Assembly (NCBI GenBank): GCA_949291395.1
Contig: CASEVW010000158.1
Span: 1 to 58,301, forward strand
Direction of reading: 5' to 3'
Origin: an uncultured Oscillospiraceae bacterium
Lineage (GTDB): Bacteria; Bacillota; Clostridia; Oscillospirales; Ruminococcaceae
DNA length: 58,301 bases
Part shown: one piece after another, positions 32,189 through 42,659 of the stretch
Layout: the number at the start of each line of letters is the position of its first letter
Position numbering within the stretch: position 1 is the stretch's first letter
Program-made: the position numbers and the translations under genes
Notes under the pieces: model-generated
What the model saw: the letters and a program-made list of their open reading frames with translations, nothing else
Databases searched by the model: none
What the model was told of the DNA's origin: nothing

Positions 32189-35100
32189 ATGGCCCTGTCC
32201 TATGAAGAATTTATGAAAGAAATGCGCCGCCCGACACAGGGCGGGAGCAGCACTGAACAGGAGAAAAAACTGAGCCACGATGAGTTTATGCAGCACTTCG
32301 GGTTCAGTACTGATCAGGCTACCCCGGCGGCCTCTTCCGGCGGCCCGCTGAAAGTATCCCGCAAGGAGGGCGGCAGCCAGCAGGCTGCTGCCCTCTCTGC
32401 CACCGAAAAAGCGAATAACTTAATGCAGGGGCAGATGAACGATGCCAACAAAAAAGAAGCCCGCCAGTTGATGAAGGACTACAATCAGCAACTGTGGGAG
32501 ATCGAAAGTTCCGGCGGGACGCTCACCGAAGAGCAGACCCAGGCGAAACGGCAGATGCAGAAACTCGGGAACAAAATGCTTGGCGACAGCATCAAAAAGG
32601 GCGTGAAGGCGGCAGGCAAAGAAGCCGCTGAGCTGCTGGGCTACACCGCAAACCAAGCGGTGAACAGCGTAAAAGGTGCAGCGTCCATGCTGACGGGGAA
32701 TCCCTATGACTATGCCGGGGAGTATGCGGAAAACTGGAAAAAGGAGCACAACGCCCCCTACACCCCGCTAGAGGACATCGCCAATCTGGTGGGCCGGAAC
32801 GCATATGCCGGCCTTGCCCAGGCAGAAAGCGGCCTTGCCAGCACGGCAGACCTTGTCCTGCCGGACCAGATCACCCCGAAGGCGGTACAAAGCGCGCTGG
32901 ACGCTATGAAAAAATCCGGCGAGGATGTGACTGCCTGGGCGGACGAGTACAACGAAAAGGCCGGGCGTGGGATCTCGGCGGACATCTTCCAGGCAGCGGG
33001 CGGAATGGTCCCTGACCTGCTCCTTGCGATGGCCACCGGCGGCGCCAGCGCTGCGGCCAGCGTGCCCAAGATGGCAACGGCCACAAAAGCTGCCACAAAG
33101 GCGGATGTGGCGGCTGATTTTATGAAAACCGCAAGTGAAACCGTACAGCAAGCGGTGCAGAACCCGCAGTTCTGGTTTTCTTTCTCCCGGACCTGGGGCG
33201 ACAGCTACGAAGAAGCCAAAAGCCGGGGCGCAAGCGAAGCCCAGGCACTGGCCGCCGGCACCCTGGGCAGCCTGCTGGGCGCGCAGATCGAGGTGGGCGG
33301 CGGTGTGCAGACGCAGTTTGCCGAGGCTGCTGAAAAGGGCCTGAAAGGCATTGCCAAAAGCGCCGTGGAGGAAGGCACGGAGGAAGTGCTGCAAAACCTG
33401 GTCACGAACAGCGCGAACGCTGCCGTTTTTGATCGGTCTGCCCCGCTGGCGGGCCTGGAGGAAAATGCCGTGTTCAACCCCGCCCGCGAAGCGAACAGCT
33501 TTGCCGTTGGCGCATTGGCGGGCGGCCTGATGAGCGCCCCCGGCGCACTGAGCCGGGGAAACGGCGTCCAGGATCTTTTCCCGCAGGAACAGCAGCTTGA
33601 CGCCCCTACCCAGGCTGCCTATAATCAGGATGAAGGAGTGATCGAAAATGAGCAACAAGCCCAGATGGGAGGACCTGTATCCGAAGGTAGTGAGCAGCTT
33701 CATCGAAGCCGGGCGGATGCTGAATATCAGCCCGGCGGAGCTGGCAACGGAATTCCTGATCCAGCAGGTGAAGGCGGGCAAAGTGATTCCGCCAGAACCG
33801 CAGAACAGATCCTCGAACGAAGCCGCCGAAGCCCCTATGTAAGGCGGCTGCAGGACGTATACGACCGGTTAGAGGCAGGCACAATCGACGGAGAAGAACT
33901 GGACAGCGAACTGAGCGCCATTGCAGAGGGCGTGATCCGCGCCGAGGATTACACCGAGCCGTTGGATGAATCCATTCTGACCCGGCGGGATTATTTAAAA
34001 CAAACGAAGATCTATTTGAACCCGGAGGAGAAAAAGCTCATTCTGGAGGCCTTTGGAGAAACCAACCTGGGCCGCCTGAACATGCGCCAAGGGGTGCGCT
34101 TCACCGATAAACCGCAGGGGGCTGTCCCCCTGGACACCGCAATGCAGGAACTGGCCGGCGAAAACCTGGGCGTGCAGGACAGTTACAGCCCGGTGGATGA
34201 CATGATCGGCCTGGTGGAAAGAAACCGGGACAAGCCGTATGTGGACGAGGATATGCTGCGCAGCCAGCGGGATTTCCTGAAAAGCCGCATGATGGCCCAG
34301 GGTAAAAGCACACAGACATTCGACGAATGGCTGGCTGTGGCGTCACAATCGAACGAATGGGGCGACGCCCCCGATTACCTGGTGCGGCTGGCAGAGCGAG
34401 AGGGCATCCCTACCGGATACCACGAAACCGACACCTACACCGTACCGGAAGAAGCCGTTCCACAGGAGCAGGCAGAAGTTCCCCCAGCGGAAAGGGCTTC
34501 CCCGGTGCCGGAAACCACCCCGGCGGCGGAAACGCCCGTGCCCGATTACTGGGAAAGCCTGTTCCAATCCGACCCGAACGGGGTCGCCCCCGGCATGGTG
34601 AAGCCGGTGGCCCCGGAAGAGCGGAATATCTGGGAAAGCCTGTTTGCAACGGATCCCCAGGCTGCCACCCGGCGGGTGACCCCGGAGGATATGCGCAAGC
34701 TGCCGGAATCCCCGGAGGAAGCGCGGGATCCCTACGACATGGCGACGCTGTTCCGCTCTGACCCGCAAGGCCGTGGCATGAGCGAACAGGCGCAGATGGA
34801 TGCACAGACCAGCCTGCGGCAGCAGGAAGCAGAAGAAACGGCCGGTGCGCCTGAAATGGAAGAAACGGCTGGCGGGCCCGAAACGGACGCCGACGGCTTG
34901 AACGAGGAACAAAAGCGGCAGGCCGGCCTGACCGGGGATGCGGTAAAGGATGCCTTTGCCCGGCACCCCATCACCCAGCGGGTGAACTACGGCCAGAACG
35001 CAGAGGAAATCCGGCAGGCGGAAACGAACAAAAAGGCCCTGCAAAAGGAATGGGATATGTACCGTTCCGCCAGCGATTCCACCCGGGCGGAAGAGGCCGA

Positions 35101-38100
35101 TGCAAAGCAGATCGCTGCCGGCGAGAAGACCATGGCGCAACTGTCTGCCGGCAGCCGCCCGGAAGTGGTGCAGACCCTGGCGAATATTCAAACCAGGATC
35201 GCACGGAGTAAAGAGACCGGCATCCAGGCGCAGAAACGCAGCATTTTTGAGCATCAGCAGGCGATCTTCAAGGGTGTCCTGGAGGAGATCAGAGACCCGG
35301 CGGAGCTGGTGACCAAGGAAAACACCAGCATCGCCAAGCTGAACCGGAGGACCCCGGAACGGGTGCTGCGGTATGTGTTCGGCGAACGGCTGGGCAAGGA
35401 GCTGAGTGATCTTCTGATCCGGCCCATCCACGCCAACGAAAGCGCAAAGGTGCAGTTCATCAACCAGATGTTCGACGATGCTCGCCAGCTGAACCTGAAC
35501 CTGGTGGAGCGCAAACTTGTGCAGCTTGTTGGTGAGGGAGCTAAGGGGAAGGACGGCTCTATTATCACGATTGATGATATTAAGAACCGGAGCATCACCG
35601 AAGAAAGCCTGCCCGGGCACATCACGAAAAGTGATCTGGATTACATCATCGAACACCAGGACGAAGCCGACCCGGAAAAAGTCAAAAATGCCGTATCCTT
35701 TTACCGCCAGCGCTATGACAGCTTCCGGGAAGTTATCAATGACTTCCGGCTGGAACATGGCATGGAGGAAATCGGAAAGCGCGAGAACTACTTCCCCCAC
35801 TTCAACGAGGATGACCCGCTGACCAAAACCCTGAAACAGCTGGGTATCGAAGGTGCCAGCGGACTGCCGACAAGCATTGCCGGCGAAACGGCGTGGTTCC
35901 GGCCCAATAGCCGGTATGTGGGGTATTTTCAGAAGCGCACCGGCCCGAAAACGACCTATGACAGCGACCTGGGTTTCCAGAGCTATGTAAACGCCGTGGC
36001 GGATATGCTCTACCACACCGATGACATTATGCGGCTGCGGAATTTTGACGCAGTGATCCGAGGCAAAAGCAAAGAGATCGACATCGCAAATACCATCGAC
36101 AGCATCCTGGCGAAGCAAAACCTCCCCCTGGATGAAAAAGACATTGAAGTGATGGACAAGATCCTGCAGGGCGAATACATGGATATGGAGGCCAGCCGCA
36201 ACTACAGCACATTCGCCCAGTGGCTCACCAACTACACCAACAAGCTGGCGAACAAGCAGCTTTTTGGTGATAGATCGACGGAAGAAAAGTGGGGCCGTAG
36301 GGCGTACAATATCGCAAACTGGATCGAATCCAGATTTACCCGAAACAGCGTGGTGGGCAACATTGCCAGCGCACTGAATAACACCATCGTCCTGCCCAAG
36401 ATCATGGCCACCACAGACCAAAAGTATGTGGCCAAAGCGATCATGGGGCTGCGCAGCGATGAGCTGCAAAACCTGGCAGCCGAAAGCGAATTTCTGCAAG
36501 GAAAGAAAGGTGTCCGCCAGCTGGTGGAAAGCCCCACGCAGAAGATCATGCGGATGGTGAATTCTCGCACATTCGAGCCAATCGAAGAAGCGGTCAGCGA
36601 CGTGGCGTTCTATGCAAAGTACCTGGAGCAGATGGATAAAAACGGCGGTGATAGCCTTGCCGCGGCCAGCGTGGCGAACGATTACGCTGCCAATATGATC
36701 GCCCGGCGGAGCAAGGGGGCTCGCCCGCTCCATCTTGAGACCAAAGACCCCCAGGCGAAACTTTTCACCATGTTCCAGACAGAGATCAGCAACGACTGGT
36801 ACAGCCTGACCCAGGATCTGCCGGAATATGTGAAAAGCCAGGTAAAAGCGGACAACGAAAAGGAAGCGGCAAAAAAAATTGCGGCCGGCGCCGCAAAATA
36901 CATGATCTACAGCTTTGCGCTGAACACGCTGCTGGAAGCGGTCACCGGGTACGCCCCGGCCCCCGACGTTATCCGCTGGCTGTGGGAATTTGGAAAGGCA
37001 GTTTTCGACGACGAAGAGGACGAAAACGCTGTGCGCAGAGTGGCACAAGCAACAGGAAAACTGGGCAGCGAAGTATTGAACCAGGTGCCCGGGGCTTCCA
37101 CTGCGATGGCGCTGGCAGGGCTGGGTGAAGGCCGCATCCCCCTTCCGGATATAAATCTTATCCAGACTGCGAACGGCATCTACACATTGTTCGACGATCC
37201 TGAGAAAAGTCCAAACAAATACAGATTCGCCGCCGATCAGATCTGGAACGGGCTTGTGAAGCCGGCTGTTTTTTCTACTGCTTTGCCTTTCGGTGGCAAC
37301 CAATTGCGTAAAACCATCGAAGGCGGCACCGCTTTGGCGCGCGGCGGCGCCTACAAGCAGACAAAGCAGGGCGAACAGCTGCAAACAAGCGTTGAAAGAA
37401 AGCCCCTCAGCGTCGTGCAGGGCCTGGTTTTCGGCAAGAGTGCTCTGCCGGAAATGGGCGAATACTATGATTCCGGCGCAAAGCCTAAAAGCACGGCGTA
37501 CACCGAAGCATATCAAGCGGGGTACGATACCGCCGTTTTGGATCAGTTGTTCCCTGCCGATGGCCCGGCCAGCTACGAGAAGATGAGCGGCGGGGCCGAA
37601 GGCACCGCTGAAATGGACAGCTGGCTGAATGAGCTGGCCGCCAGCACCGGAAGAGAATCTGTGCTGCCGAGCAATTCCACCACCAGCGTCACCGTGGACG
37701 GCGAAACGGTCAAGTTGAGCGGGCCGGAGCAGGTGGAATTTGCCAAAACCAGGCAGAAGACCAGCTATAACATCTTGTCCGCTCTGTTACCTGTAGCCGA
37801 TGGCATGGATGAAGACGTTCAGGCCAAGTATGCCAGCTCTGCGCAGGCGTATGCCCGGGAAGTGGCGGCGTCGGAGTTCACCGGCGAAGAGCCCGCCAGC
37901 TGGGTGGTCAAGGTACAGCAGGAAGCAGATACTTCTGGCGCAGAGGTGACCGACGAACTGGTGAACGTCCTGCTCGCCCGGTCGATTATCAGTGAAGCCG
38001 AGGGCGATAAATCGCCCAGCGGACGGGCGATTTCCGGCAGCAAAAAGCGGAACGCCACGCAGGCCCTGGTGGATGCAGGATTCAGCCGGTCGGAAGCAAT

Positions 38101-38125
38101 CCGGCTGTACGATCTGTTCACATGA
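32189..38125 (+). CDS. Giant internal virion / ejection protein, 1978 aa
   Basis: Largest phage gene. Begins with two short repeats SYEEFMKEM and SHDEFMQHF. Ala/Gly-rich amphipathic segments follow (about 160-400), then a linker region that coincides with the nested ORF 33648-33842. Three WESLFxxDP-type repeats lie around residues 790-850. The large central helical domain contains KRENYFPHFNEDD and QTEISNDWYSLTQDLP, and a hydrophobic stretch KYMIYSFALNTLLEAV lies near residue 1575. Proteins of this size after the lysis genes in short-tailed phages form the DNA ejection channel or carry injected effectors. No catalytic motif (transglycosylase, protease, polymerase) was found. Confidence 0.7.
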   Translation: MALSYEEFMKEMRRPTQGGSSTEQEKKLSHDEFMQHFGFSTDQATPAASSGGPLKVSRKEGGSQQAAALSATEKANNLMQGQMNDANKKEARQLMKDYNQQLWEIESSGGTLTEEQTQAKRQMQKLGNKMLGDSIKKGVKAAGKEAAELLGYTANQAVNSVKGAASMLTGNPYDYAGEYAENWKKEHNAPYTPLEDIANLVGRNAYAGLAQAESGLASTADLVLPDQITPKAVQSALDAMKKSGEDVTAWADEYNEKAGRGISADIFQAAGGMVPDLLLAMATGGASAAASVPKMATATKAATKADVAADFMKTASETVQQAVQNPQFWFSFSRTWGDSYEEAKSRGASEAQALAAGTLGSLLGAQIEVGGGVQTQFAEAAEKGLKGIAKSAVEEGTEEVLQNLVTNSANAAVFDRSAPLAGLEENAVFNPAREANSFAVGALAGGLMSAPGALSRGNGVQDLFPQEQQLDAPTQAAYNQDEGVIENEQQAQMGGPVSEGSEQLHRSRADAEYQPGGAGNGIPDPAGEGGQSDSARTAEQILERSRRSPYVRRLQDVYDRLEAGTIDGEELDSELSAIAEGVIRAEDYTEPLDESILTRRDYLKQTKIYLNPEEKKLILEAFGETNLGRLNMRQGVRFTDKPQGAVPLDTAMQELAGENLGVQDSYSPVDDMIGLVERNRDKPYVDEDMLRSQRDFLKSRMMAQGKSTQTFDEWLAVASQSNEWGDAPDYLVRLAEREGIPTGYHETDTYTVPEEAVPQEQAEVPPAERASPVPETTPAAETPVPDYWESLFQSDPNGVAPGMVKPVAPEERNIWESLFATDPQAATRRVTPEDMRKLPESPEEARDPYDMATLFRSDPQGRGMSEQAQMDAQTSLRQQEAEETAGAPEMEETAGGPETDADGLNEEQKRQAGLTGDAVKDAFARHPITQRVNYGQNAEEIRQAETNKKALQKEWDMYRSASDSTRAEEADAKQIAAGEKTMAQLSAGSRPEVVQTLANIQTRIARSKETGIQAQKRSIFEHQQAIFKGVLEEIRDPAELVTKENTSIAKLNRRTPERVLRYVFGERLGKELSDLLIRPIHANESAKVQFINQMFDDARQLNLNLVERKLVQLVGEGAKGKDGSIITIDDIKNRSITEESLPGHITKSDLDYIIEHQDEADPEKVKNAVSFYRQRYDSFREVINDFRLEHGMEEIGKRENYFPHFNEDDPLTKTLKQLGIEGASGLPTSIAGETAWFRPNSRYVGYFQKRTGPKTTYDSDLGFQSYVNAVADMLYHTDDIMRLRNFDAVIRGKSKEIDIANTIDSILAKQNLPLDEKDIEVMDKILQGEYMDMEASRNYSTFAQWLTNYTNKLANKQLFGDRSTEEKWGRRAYNIANWIESRFTRNSVVGNIASALNNTIVLPKIMATTDQKYVAKAIMGLRSDELQNLAAESEFLQGKKGVRQLVESPTQKIMRMVNSRTFEPIEEAVSDVAFYAKYLEQMDKNGGDSLAAASVANDYAANMIARRSKGARPLHLETKDPQAKLFTMFQTEISNDWYSLTQDLPEYVKSQVKADNEKEAAKKIAAGAAKYMIYSFALNTLLEAVTGYAPAPDVIRWLWEFGKAVFDDEEDENAVRRVAQATGKLGSEVLNQVPGASTAMALAGLGEGRIPLPDINLIQTANGIYTLFDDPEKSPNKYRFAADQIWNGLVKPAVFSTALPFGGNQLRKTIEGGTALARGGAYKQTKQGEQLQTSVERKPLSVVQGLVFGKSALPEMGEYYDSGAKPKSTAYTEAYQAGYDTAVLDQLFPADGPASYEKMSGGAEGTAEMDSWLNELAASTGRESVLPSNSTTSVTVDGETVKLSGPEQVEFAKTRQKTSYNILSALLPVADGMDEDVQAKYASSAQAYAREVAASEFTGEEPASWVVKVQQEADTSGAEVTDELVNVLLARSIISEAEGDKSPSGRAISGSKKRNATQALVDAGFSRSEAIRLYDLFT
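33648..33842 (+). CDS. Nested ORF inside the giant virion gene, 64 aa
   Basis: Starts with ATG nine bases behind AAGGAG and runs in another frame than the giant gene. It encodes a normal-looking helical protein (WEDLYPKVVSSFIEAGRMLN, SPAELATEFLIQQVKAGK). In this stretch the third positions of the nested frame are mostly G/C, as in all real genes here, while the giant frame reads a Gly/Ser/Glu-rich linker with poor third positions. Normal codon use of the giant frame returns right after the nested stop. Confidence 0.6.
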   Translation: MSNKPRWEDLYPKVVSSFIEAGRMLNISPAELATEFLIQQVKAGKVIPPEPQNRSSNEAAEAPM

Positions 38126-38270: not shown

Positions 38271-38281
38271 CTGGCTCCCCA
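38271..38281. other. attR core (right prophage attachment site)
   Basis: CTGGCTCCCCA, identical to 836-846, covers the last ten bases of tRNA-Asn including the encoded CCA. The tRNA stays intact because the phage brings the same bases. Confidence 0.8.
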
Positions 38282-38347
38282 AGTTGGACTCGAACCAACG
38301 ACCCTGCGGTTAACAGCCGCATGCTCTACCGACTGAGCTATTGAGGA
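38272..38347 (-). tRNA. tRNA-Asn (GTT)
   Basis: 76 nt with encoded CCA. Acceptor TCCTCAA / TTGGGGA (one T-G), anticodon loop GTT, T-loop TTCGAGT. Last gene of the three-tRNA operon and the integration target. Confidence 0.95.
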
Positions 38348-38352
38348 ACAAA

Positions 38353-38429
<77 letters not shown>

Positions 38430-38433
38430 TATG

Positions 38434-38508
38434 TGGTGACCCGTGGGAGAATCGAACTCCCGTTTGCGGCGTGAGAGGCCGCCGTCTTGACCGCTTGACC
38501 AACGGGCC
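38434..38508 (-). tRNA. tRNA-Glu (CTC)
   Basis: 75 nt with encoded CCA. Acceptor GGCCCGT / ACGGGTC, anticodon stem-loop GCGGC-CTCTCAC-GCCGC gives CTC. First gene of the operon. Confidence 0.95.
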
Positions 38509-40171: not shown

Positions 40172-41133
40172 CTCCGGATCTTTTTTTGCACCGTCTTTTG
40201 ACCAATCTGCCCATGCTCACCGGCGAAGAGCGCCAGCAGCTGATCGACTATTACACCGAGCTAGTGGCCGACGCCACGGAAAACGGCAAGACCGAGGCCC
40301 AGGCCCTGGCCGAGCTGGGCAGCCCGGAGGAAGCCGCCCGCCTGATCGCGGCAGACTACAGCCAGCAGGCCGCCGCCAGCGGCCCCCAGCCCGCCTGCTT
40401 TGCCGCCACCGGTACGGTGCGCACGGTGCGGCTGGAGGTGCAGTCGGTGAAGGTGCAGGTGCGCACCGGCACCGTGGACCTGCCCTGCGTGTGGTTTGAG
40501 GGCATGGACGAAAAGGACGAGGTGCAGTTCACCGAGGAAAACGGCGTGATGCGCTTTGTGCAGACCCGTGCCTGGTCCTTTTTAGACTTCAAGTCCCTGC
40601 TGGGGCCCAGCCGGCTGATCACGCTGGAACTGCCCGCCGGGTACAACGGCATCCTGCTGGTGACCAGCCGCAACGGCTCGGTGCGGCTGTCCTCCTTCAC
40701 CGCCCGCCGGGTGGAGGTATGCGCTTCCAACGGCACCGCCGTGCTGGAGAGCATCGAGGCCGAAGAGCATATGCGGGTGCAGACCTCTAACGGCGCGGCC
40801 AAGGCCGCCCGCTGCTGCGCCGATCTGATCGACCTGAACTCGCTGAACGGCGCGGTGCGGGCCGAAGACTGCACCTGCCACGAGCTGGCGCTGCACACCA
40901 CCAACGGCGGCGCCCAGGCCATCCGGGCCAAGGCCGACAAGGTGCGGCTGGAAAGCCGCAACGGCGCTTTGATGGCCGAGCTGTACGGCGCGCTGGAGGA
41001 ATACAATGTGGATGCCCGCACCGTGAACGGCAAGAACAACCTGACCAGTGTGTTCGACCCGGAGCGGACCAAGACCCTTTTCGCTCACACCACCAACGGC
41101 CGCATCGACGTGCAGTTCATCCCTGCACCGTAA
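40168..41133 (+). CDS. DUF1700/DUF4097-like protein, PadR partner
   Basis: 321 aa, ATGA overlap with padR. The N-terminal ~65 residues carry the HAAS/DUF1700-type signature (LLTNLPMLTGEERQQLIDYY). From residue ~90 on it is a repetitive beta structure with recurrent NG turns (SRNGSVRLSS, SLNGAVRAED, TTNGGAQAIR, TVNGKNN), as in DUF4097 proteins. No membrane segment. Probably a sensor that signals to or is controlled by the PadR protein. Confidence 0.82.
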   Translation: MTPDLFLHRLLTNLPMLTGEERQQLIDYYTELVADATENGKTEAQALAELGSPEEAARLIAADYSQQAAASGPQPACFAATGTVRTVRLEVQSVKVQVRTGTVDLPCVWFEGMDEKDEVQFTEENGVMRFVQTRAWSFLDFKSLLGPSRLITLELPAGYNGILLVTSRNGSVRLSSFTARRVEVCASNGTAVLESIEAEEHMRVQTSNGAAKAARCCADLIDLNSLNGAVRAEDCTCHELALHTTNGGAQAIRAKADKVRLESRNGALMAELYGALEEYNVDARTVNGKNNLTSVFDPERTKTLFAHTTNGRIDVQFIPAP

Positions 41134-41151: not shown

Positions 41152-41179
41152 CAGGCCCCCGGCATTGGCCGGGGGCCTG
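41152..41179 (+). terminator. Terminator behind the PadR operon
   Basis: Perfect 12-bp stem CAGGCCCCCGGC / GCCGGGGGCCTG, 4-nt loop; the following tract is only moderately T-rich (TCTCTTTCTC). Confidence 0.7.
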
Positions 41180-41275
41180 TCTCTTTCTCTATATACAGAA
41201 AAAGAGGTGCCTCCAAAGGAGACACCCCAACGTTTTTATTATACCACCAAATCCGCCGTTTTTTCAAGGCAACAT

Positions 41276-41304
41276 TTGTACAAATTTTGCAACGGAAGTA
41301 TATT
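41276..41304 (+). promoter_or_regulatory. Promoter of the candidate large RNA
   Basis: TTGTAC (41276-41281), 17-bp spacer, TATATT (41299-41304). Good match and spacing; the next 1.1 kb contains no credible gene. Confidence 0.6.
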
Positions 41305-41310
41305 TACTTT

Positions 41311-42390
41311 GCCAATATACAAACCGCTTTTCCTATGGTATATTATAGACACACCAAGGAAGAGAAAGCCGAGGTCAAGAAACTCAACGCTTCCATAAAG
41401 AAGATGGAACGCTGACGAGGAATGAAAGGAGCGCAGGACCATCATGGTAATTGAAGAACCCGGCCAGGTAGGGCAGGATGGGACCTGCCGCTGAATCCAA
41501 GAACTACTTTCTCACAGCAAGATGATTTCTTGAAATACCAAAGGCCAAGCCCAACGCTTCCTCAACCCGAGTCAGATCACAGCAGGTATTTCTTAGATCG
41601 ATGGATCGGAAAAAACCGATGGCTAGGCTGACCGGCGGGAACCAATGAGGCGAAAAACCGAACGGTAACTAAATAAAGTATAAACGTTCTTGTAACGATT
41701 CAAATAGCGAGCAGATCCCATCCCTGCCAAAGCAGAGAGATCAAAAGAAAACGGTTTTGATCCTGATCCGATCATACAGAAAGCAGTGAAATCAATCGTT
41801 TCGATGTGAGGAACATAAACGCATTGGCCCCGTCAAAAAGGGTTCTACCGAGCGATGCGAGGTTTCAGGTAACGCTTTGGATCAAAAAATCCACTCATTT
41901 GGTTTTATTGCAAAAATAAGATCAGAAGAATTTTGACAAAAAGCCCTGAACAGCAAACGCATTCGACCAAAACATCCTTTCTCCAACAAAGACGGACGGC
42001 CCTGCAAAAATGGATCTGTAAAACAACAAAAACGGTAACATTTCTTTTATGTGTGACCAATAATATCTGAATCAAACCACAAGAGGCTTCGAGTCCAATG
42101 TACTAAAAAATCGTTCGCATTTTTCTTTTTCCGTTTCAGCGGTTAAAAAGCCGGTCTGATCCATTCAAAAAGAAAGAGGAAAACGCCAATGTGCTGAATG
42201 TTTGCCCGTAGACCACCTGGGATGCAGGCAATGTGAAGCAACAAAGCCTGCTGGTAATATGAAAAAAAGCGTGATCAATATGTATGACGAGAAAGTCGTA
42301 TTGAGGCGTTTTGAATTCATCTAAATCGAGGGCAGACCAATGTACTGAATCATTTTTCCGGGGCGCCGTGTCCGGCGTCCCGGTTTTTTT
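41311..42390 (+). ncRNA. Candidate large structured non-coding RNA
   Basis: About 1.08 kb between a promoter (41276-41304) and a terminator (42358-42390). Between 41450 and 42130 no frame on either strand stays open for 60 codons. It is more AT-rich than the flanking genes and full of local hairpins: GGCAGG / CCTGCC (about 41473-41490), ATCGG-AAAAAA-CCGAT, GATCAAAA / TTTTGATC (about 41739-41762), CGTTT...AAACG, GCAGGC / GCCTGC (about 42223-42252), with A-rich linkers. CCAATGTACT occurs twice (about 42097 and 42338). The style recalls ornate large RNAs such as ROOL or GOLLD, but I cannot assign a class. Two tiny ORFs (41335-41415; 41444-41494, the latter with AAAGGAG) lie at its 5' end. Confidence 0.5.
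42358..42390 (+). terminator. Terminator of the candidate large RNA
   Basis: Stem CCGGGGCGCC / GGCGTCCCGG (one G-T pair), 6-nt loop, seven T. Confidence 0.88.
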
Positions 42391-42435
42391 GTGTTTTTTC
42401 GCCCGGTCTATTTTATTGTAAAGCGGCCGCAACAG

Positions 42436-42571
42436 TGGTATAATAGCCGCGGAGCGGCTATTATACCAGAACAAATGCGCAGAGCCTCGCCATTCCGGCC
42501 CTTATGGGCCCGGCCTGGCAACCGGCTTTTGATGCGCAATTATACCATTTTGCTCCGCTTCATGGTATAAT
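42436..42571. promoter_or_regulatory. Two palindromes with TGGTATAAT before the racemase gene
   Basis: Perfect 15-bp arms TGGTATAATAGCCGC / GCGGCTATTATACCA with a 3-bp centre (42436-42468), and ATTATACCAT / ATGGTATAAT (42539-42548, 42562-42571). TGGTATAAT, an extended -10, occurs four times, twice on each strand. The last copy probably drives the racemase gene. Confidence 0.55.
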
Positions 42572-42659
42572 GGAGTCACTCGGCAAAAAAGCAAAGCAAC
42601 CCGTTCCATGCGCCGTTGGCGCTTTTTTCAAATCCACAGCAAAAGGCGGCGTTCTATTT

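Follow-up and report, generated by a model that had tools for sequence, protein, structure and literature searches.

The window analysed here, i.e., the whole 58,301-nucleotide stretch of contig CASEVW010000158.1 from an uncultured Oscillospiraceae bacterium, holds an intergenic unit flanked by a DUF4097 gene, which ends at 41133, and an Asp/Glu racemase gene, which starts at ~42660, with metG following the racemase gene (neighbours assigned by Pfam). The unit is 44% G+C and 34% A while the adjoining DNA is ~60-70% G+C, in agreement with a first-pass annotation that had described A-rich linkers and a composition unlike that of the neighbours, and it occurs as a single copy in its own genome assembly. 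The tRNA cluster that the same annotation had put about 3 kb away was found at 38272-38508, 2.8 kb from the unit, and a Pfam search gave no match for the ORF of 1978 codons (32189-38125) where the prophage is presumed to end. Two more terminator-like hairpins (41152-41179 and 41204-41228) are present between the DUF4097 gene and the promoter of the unit, and the stretch between its terminator and the racemase gene (42416-42580) carries, by eye, repeated TGGTATAAT-like and inverted sequences, one element of which is a promoter-like site (42416-42444). The features of the unit are as follows.

41316-41344, plus strand: promoter, TATACA-N17-TATATT with TG before the -10 (TATGGTATATTATAG), 9/12 matches
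41347-42390, plus strand: likely transcript, ~1.04 kb, its start placed from the promoter
41425-41431, plus strand: Shine-Dalgarno AAAGGAG of the first short ORF
41444-41494, plus strand: first short ORF, MVIEEPGQVGQDGTCR* (asterisk, stop), 16 codons plus stop, start context CCAUC-AUG
41472-41494, plus strand: 5' arm of a long-range helix, formed by the latter half of the first ORF with its stop, from the alignment
41518-41532, plus strand: small conserved hairpin CAAGA-UGAUU-UCUUG, closing pair A-U, C-G, or G-C
41705-41728, plus strand: 3' arm of this helix (20 pairs in all, of which 3 are changed on both sides; 98.5% of cells paired)
42083-42106, plus strand: minigene A, MY*, ORF 42098-42106, GAGG...UCCA-AUG-UAC-UAA
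42176-42197, plus strand: minigene B, MC*, ORF 42189-42197, GAGG...GCCA-AUG-UGC-UGA
42200-42207, plus strand: GUUUGCCC, just 3' of minigene B, putative pairing partner of the minigene C Shine-Dalgarno region (42330-42337)
42224-42251, plus strand: hairpin GCAGGC/GCCUGC with AUG-UGA in its loop, 98.5% of cells paired, one two-sided change
42328-42348, plus strand: minigene C, MY*, ORF 42340-42348, GAGGGCAGACCA-AUG-UAC-UGA
42358-42390, plus strand: intrinsic terminator with conserved loop, 11-bp hairpin (42358-42383) plus T-run

Taken in one sequence alone, neither end signal is better than chance (promoter-like sites, 5 vs 1.8 ± 1.8 expected; terminators, 5 vs 4.5 ± 2.6 expected), and both are credible because they are conserved among relatives. 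An alignment of 12 units spans from upstream of the promoter through the terminator, with the promoter present across all 12 and a terminator of 10 pairs, 3 of them with two-sided changes, and a relative from another family of the order (L057) has the promoter TTGACA...TGTGGTATATTATAGACACA. The earlier proposal of a stand-alone unit with its own promoter and intrinsic terminator is thus borne out by conservation rather than by the single sequence, while its 1.08-kb extent needs revision: the proposed start, 41276, lies upstream of the promoter and hence outside the likely transcript, which more probably covers 41347-42390 (~1.04 kb).

Like the unit, ROOL, GOLLD, OLE, and raiA (ModT) are large or structured bacterial RNAs; they are described as non-coding, and ROOL and GOLLD are linked to phages or prophages. 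The unit differs from all four in being without an Rfam match: no family reached its gathering score there when the window was searched, and the 18 hits below gathering at E up to 10 included none to ROOL, GOLLD, OLE, or raiA. Likewise, 12 distinct homologous loci (7 searched at gathering and 6 at E up to 0.01, with L019 in both) gave nothing within the unit, the only matches being to tRNA, T-box, and 6S, all outside it; 6S RNA (RF00013) had no match in the unit either. Searches of phage and plasmid records returned no match to the unit, and viral contigs gave 0 matches to the MY* pattern GAGGGYAGNCCAATGTACTRA. These results give no support to the ROOL/GOLLD-like identity that had been suggested, and the unit belongs to no known Rfam class. 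Decay of a protein gene or insertion sequence, named in the first-pass annotation as an outcome that would count against an RNA, was rejected by ORF comparison: the longest sense ATG ORF in the unit has 21 codons (1/200 shuffles as short), no long CCRAUG ORF or other long ORF is common to the relatives, and their anatomy is kept.

What the unit appears to encode is very short. "No credible ORF" had been the earlier verdict, and it holds for long ORFs; yet a conserved 16-codon ORF and three two-codon ORFs are present, all with a Shine-Dalgarno sequence. Two-codon minigenes (Shine-Dalgarno, AUG, one sense codon, and stop) begin at 42098, 42189, and 42340, and none of 3000 shuffles of the unit reached three, while the rest of the window has six such minigenes on the plus strand and one on the minus strand, all of them single. 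In the whole genome, 32 places fit AGG-N-CCRATG-N3-TRR (9 in a reversed-pattern control), and the only cluster is the unit itself, with 3 within 265 nt and the other 29 scattered. Two further CCRAUG sites in the unit, at 41619 and 41645, open frames of 9 and 7 codons that were not seen kept in relatives. Longer ORFs are clearly depleted in the window, while the picture elsewhere among the 14 units examined is mixed.

A DNA search (E <= 0.001) found the unit in 6 of the 7 genomes searched in the genus, the one without it (G002) being 88% complete, and gave matches in 23 of 396 family genomes, some of them short (e.g., L022, L023, L025, and L026) and probably due to chance; four relatives match over the full length of the unit at 71% identity. 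Most relatives come from draft genomes or bins. A pattern scan of named genomes gave 23 loci, which come from 7 Lachnospiraceae, an uncultured Clostridia bin, and genomes or bins of Gemmiger, Fournierella, and Faecalibacterium. With TGG allowed in place of the stop, the MY pattern was found in 53 of the 396 family genomes, and single matches mean little because the reversed control matched ~22 (hand count). Arrays of at least two sites occur in 37/396 family genomes and 15/126 genera (hand count; G206 enters via L018, and g69, with two genomes, is weak) and, outside the family, in one genome of another family of the order (L057), in Lachnospiraceae, and in the unclassified or uncultured Clostridia bin. 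These array figures are lower bounds because MY* was required. At the class level, one MY* pattern was found in 3 of 392 genomes including the unit's own, with 2 genomes matched by the reversed control.

The relatives share an anatomy, usually of one short ORF (8-25 codons) plus minigenes, in each of which a Shine-Dalgarno sequence is followed by CC(A/G), AUG, in most cases a single codon, and then a stop. Relatives diverge in the middle of the RNA, where short strings such as GAGG...CCAAUGUACU(A/G)A stay, and the minigenes vary by genus in number, place, and second codon yet recur, the sequence between them being poorly conserved. Other genera have MW*, MHK*, or MHR*, or sets such as MYK*, MQ*, MV*, MI*, and MY* (L081) or MC*, MG*, MY*, and MH* (L093). 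Across 28 units (24 good and 4 weak, x98-x102), sites with a Shine-Dalgarno sequence and CCRAUG number 95 on the sense strand vs 4 antisense. Since most relatives were retrieved with MY* patterns, counts of MY* are biased, and the statistics were rerun without MY* sites: 23 of the 56 remaining sites stop at codon 3 (p 2e-16 vs 3/64) and 8 at codon 4, and, apart from one 56-codon frame in g58, the longest closed frame has 22 codons (one frame in g47 is cut by the contig end). Under a looser definition (any start context, at most four codons), again leaving out MY*, there are 37 sense and 2 antisense mini-ORFs and ~14.7 in shuffles; with MY* included, 65 of 78 sense mini-ORFs have exactly two codons, and each unit has one to seven. 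Position 2 of the non-MY mini-ORFs takes 12 different amino acids, and 30 of 35 have CC at -3,-2, vs 13 of 110 ordinary Shine-Dalgarno-bearing ORF starts. Extra-strong pairing of minigene starts with the 16S tail was considered and dropped, as the means (-12.2 and -11.9 vs -11.5 kcal/mol for ordinary genes) show no clear excess.

Of the 28 units, 20 have a recognisable first ORF (8-25 codons), whereas none was recognised in the other 8. It is free of indels in the 12 aligned units, and its start context is CCRAUG in many units and CCAUC-AUG in g1, g58, g21, and most of g110. Its relatives, identified partly by eye, include MVKEEPKQFGQGGSCR*, MKIEEPVQFWQVCAD*, MSNTEPVQQWQARGR*, MVDMDPVQFGQTVGSR*, and MDIEEPIH*; E-P or E-E-P is frequent, and the peptide is otherwise weakly conserved. 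Five Lachnospiraceae have the E-E-P ORF (MDIEEPIH*) at the 3' end, with MGN* and MY* ahead of it, and the ORFs of these five RNAs have too few changes for a coding test. Additional tiny ORFs were observed in some relatives: two near the 3' end in relatives of g81 (L078, L079, L080, and L019), one ending in EK* (MKGKVKTEK*, MKVEVPSEK*, MKGKVNSEK*) and MTPKK* in all three; a comparable EK*-ending ORF, MTFKVQSEK*, in g110; and, by eye, a short ORF beginning MYSSR in L056 and L057, with different codons.

Between close relatives, stop codons exchange among TAA, TAG, and TGA at fixed sites. At the minigene A site in genus g58, five genomes have TAA, TGA, TGA, TGA, and TAG in near-identical surroundings, and at the minigene B site in that genus AUG-UGG is followed by TAA, TAG, TGA, TAA, and TAA, again in near-identical surroundings. 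The family search with the MY pattern let TGG stand for the stop and listed 16 TGG places, of which 7 were examined; each of the 7 stands alone within an open frame 150 or more codons long, and no TGG was found among the array sites examined. True-stop sites that were fetched lie in arrays in 59 of 63 cases, two being counted twice (L058 and L059 overlap); L047 and L101-L102 have a single MY* match in the region scanned (L047 by eye), and L103 (G206) is a single in this tally and an array when read in L018. Only the array criterion separates true-stop sites from TGG sites, because 23 of the 63 true-stop sites likewise coincide, in one frame or another, with an open frame of that length. Judged from the sequences, exchange of synonymous stops without TGG in arrays is what translation would predict and what a plain RNA motif would not.

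The unit had also been described as rich in local hairpins, and the comparison for covariation that had been proposed brought out a long-range helix, the terminator, and the AUG-UGA hairpin. The helix, whose 5' arm covers the latter half of the first ORF together with its stop, was aligned in 10 of the 12 units, from three genera, with two near-duplicates left out. For the whole structure tested, 0/500 shuffles and no slid version matched the covariation score, while 35/500 shuffles had as many pairs with two-sided changes; most of the signal in this test comes from a single split between genera. In distant relatives the same place pairs with other letters (e.g., AGCACCCGAGUUGUAAUACAGUGA with GCAUUGUAUAAUUACACCGGGUGCC in L038), which is a stronger sign than the covariation. 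When the helix was ranked against 60 shuffles in each of 20 units, several from one genus, 12 were at rank 0-2, the window among them, and the other 8 were at ranks 3, 4, 7, 8, 14, 29, 33, and 42, with g81a, g9, and g58 within ranks 3-7. A kissing loop (41476-41488 with 41711-41723) was superseded by this longer helix, which came from RNAalifold. The 5' arm is also able to fold locally into a GGCAGG/CCUGCC hairpin, and because it can pair with itself two folds may compete. Further 3', the predicted pairing of GUUUGCCC with the Shine-Dalgarno region of minigene C has 97.7% of cells paired and no two-sided change.

Downstream of the unit, the racemase gene (Pfam) recurs, by eye from translated ORFs, in g1, g9, g21, and g58, while other genes follow in g63b, g38, and L038 and opposite-strand ORFs in L034 and G606 (by eye). 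A DUF1292 gene lies beside six relatives (G068, G137, G306, and G606 by Pfam; L038 and L095 by eye), and that of the window's genome is on another contig. As a general marker DUF1292 was rejected, since the best-scoring 30 DUF1292 loci from 147 genomes of the order included one two-codon site (L115, ME*). In two relatives a 6S RNA gene is right beside the DUF1292 gene and near the array (L057, 19-208, minus strand; L091, 2473-2683, plus strand), and T-box leaders are present on the array contigs L078 (1823-2089) and L038 (4647-4857).

Short ORFs and minigenes in bacterial RNAs are familiar in other settings. Phage lambda bar is a two-codon minigene in an mRNA leader, and S. aureus RNAIII and E. 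coli SgrS are dual-function regulatory RNAs with one ORF each that are not known to carry a minigene array; like the unit, they are stand-alone structured RNAs with a short ORF, and the minigene array sets the unit apart. Leader-peptide attenuators likewise hold the end of a short ORF in long-range pairing, for a ribosome to open, whereas the unit has its own terminator and a downstream gene that is not conserved across relatives. The minigenes axe-txe mg2 and ler, as described in PMC8708949, share the make-up of Shine-Dalgarno, AUG, one codon, and stop, with cis action by ribosome binding proposed; there, one or two elements precede a protein gene, while the unit has several in a stand-alone RNA with its own terminator. 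That paper proposes that ribosomes bound at a two-codon minigene act in cis to stabilise the transcript that carries it, and it reports earlier work in which ribosomes may restart in place on minigenes with a strong Shine-Dalgarno sequence. Searches of an open-access library turned up no stand-alone RNA with a minigene array.

We consider it probable, from these comparisons, that the unit is a stand-alone, translated, and structured "minigene-array RNA" that is gated by ribosomes and whose most likely role would be as a sensor or sink of initiating ribosomes. Its parts differ in strength. That the minigene array is translated is very probable, and the earlier label "non-coding" is hard to keep when start codon, stop codon, and reading frame are among the most constrained features; a fold gated by ribosomes seems likely; and a biological role as a sensor or sink, with occupancy as the output, is put forward as possible and tentatively. 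On this proposal, ribosomes would initiate on the first short ORF as well as on several minigenes, and the long-range helix would lock the end of that ORF, two steps that the sequence comparison backs. A ribosome translating the first ORF would then open that helix, and one on minigene B may cover GUUUGCCC and so free the Shine-Dalgarno sequence of minigene C. Ribosomes on the minigenes would make a di- or tripeptide and then stop or restart in place, and their occupancy would set the fold and lifetime of the RNA, which may thereby read, and perhaps absorb, initiating ribosomes, with occupancy and not any peptide as its output.

Other explanations account for part of these observations. It is unlikely, though conceivable, that the minigenes act only in cis, with bound ribosomes shielding a structured trans-acting RNA from nucleases, so that the output is the RNA itself through base-pairing or protein binding; the published proposal (PMC8708949) of a minigene that stabilises its own transcript would fit, as would the conserved structure besides the ORFs, but minigenes that differ by genus in number, place, and second codon and yet recur, amid poorly conserved intervening sequence, do not sit well with it. 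We find it improbable that the unit is an mRNA that serves to make the first short peptide, in which E-P or E-E-P is frequent, and whose remainder is a long untranslated tail. Recognition of the first ORF in 20/28 units is in keeping with such a messenger, and so is the movement of the motif as a module, with MDIEEPIH* at the 3' end in Lachnospiraceae, but the peptide is weakly conserved and went unrecognised in 8/28 units, and minigenes and helix would be left unexplained.

The stop codons weigh against reading GAGG...CCRAUG-NNN-URR as an untranslated protein-binding motif within an ornate non-coding RNA, since they vary as synonyms, with no TGG at the array sites examined, and three-codon and longer ORFs have the same start context; although ordinary start sites seldom have CC before AUG and pairing is predicted for the Shine-Dalgarno region of minigene C, we regard this explanation as highly improbable. 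Attenuation of the downstream racemase gene by a leader is more doubtful again, to the point of being scarcely credible: a racemase gene does follow in the window and, by eye, in g1, g9, g21, and g58, but the unit has its own terminator and the downstream gene, by eye, differs (g63b, g38, L038) or runs the other way (L034, G606) in several relatives, which argues that it is not a leader. A more specific form of the sensor or sink proposal is a dedicated ribosome buffer, in which the array captures and recycles initiating ribosomes and ribosome supply sets fold and lifetime, as an RNA counterpart, in Clostridia, of hibernation factors; we offer it as a speculation that is rather unlikely to hold in full.

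Together, these observations suggest a type of RNA, so far unrecognised, that depends on ribosome loading for its function. Two- and three-codon ORFs are dropped in genome annotation and their loci classed as non-coding. Here the shortest possible ORFs look like one of the main conserved parts of a large RNA that is present across several gut-bacterial families. Should translation be confirmed, ribosome occupancy may be the product of a class of RNAs, and long "non-coding" bacterial RNAs would need to be rescanned for minigenes. Such units would also offer natural arrays for studying initiation at short ORFs, restarting, and peptidyl-tRNA drop-off.
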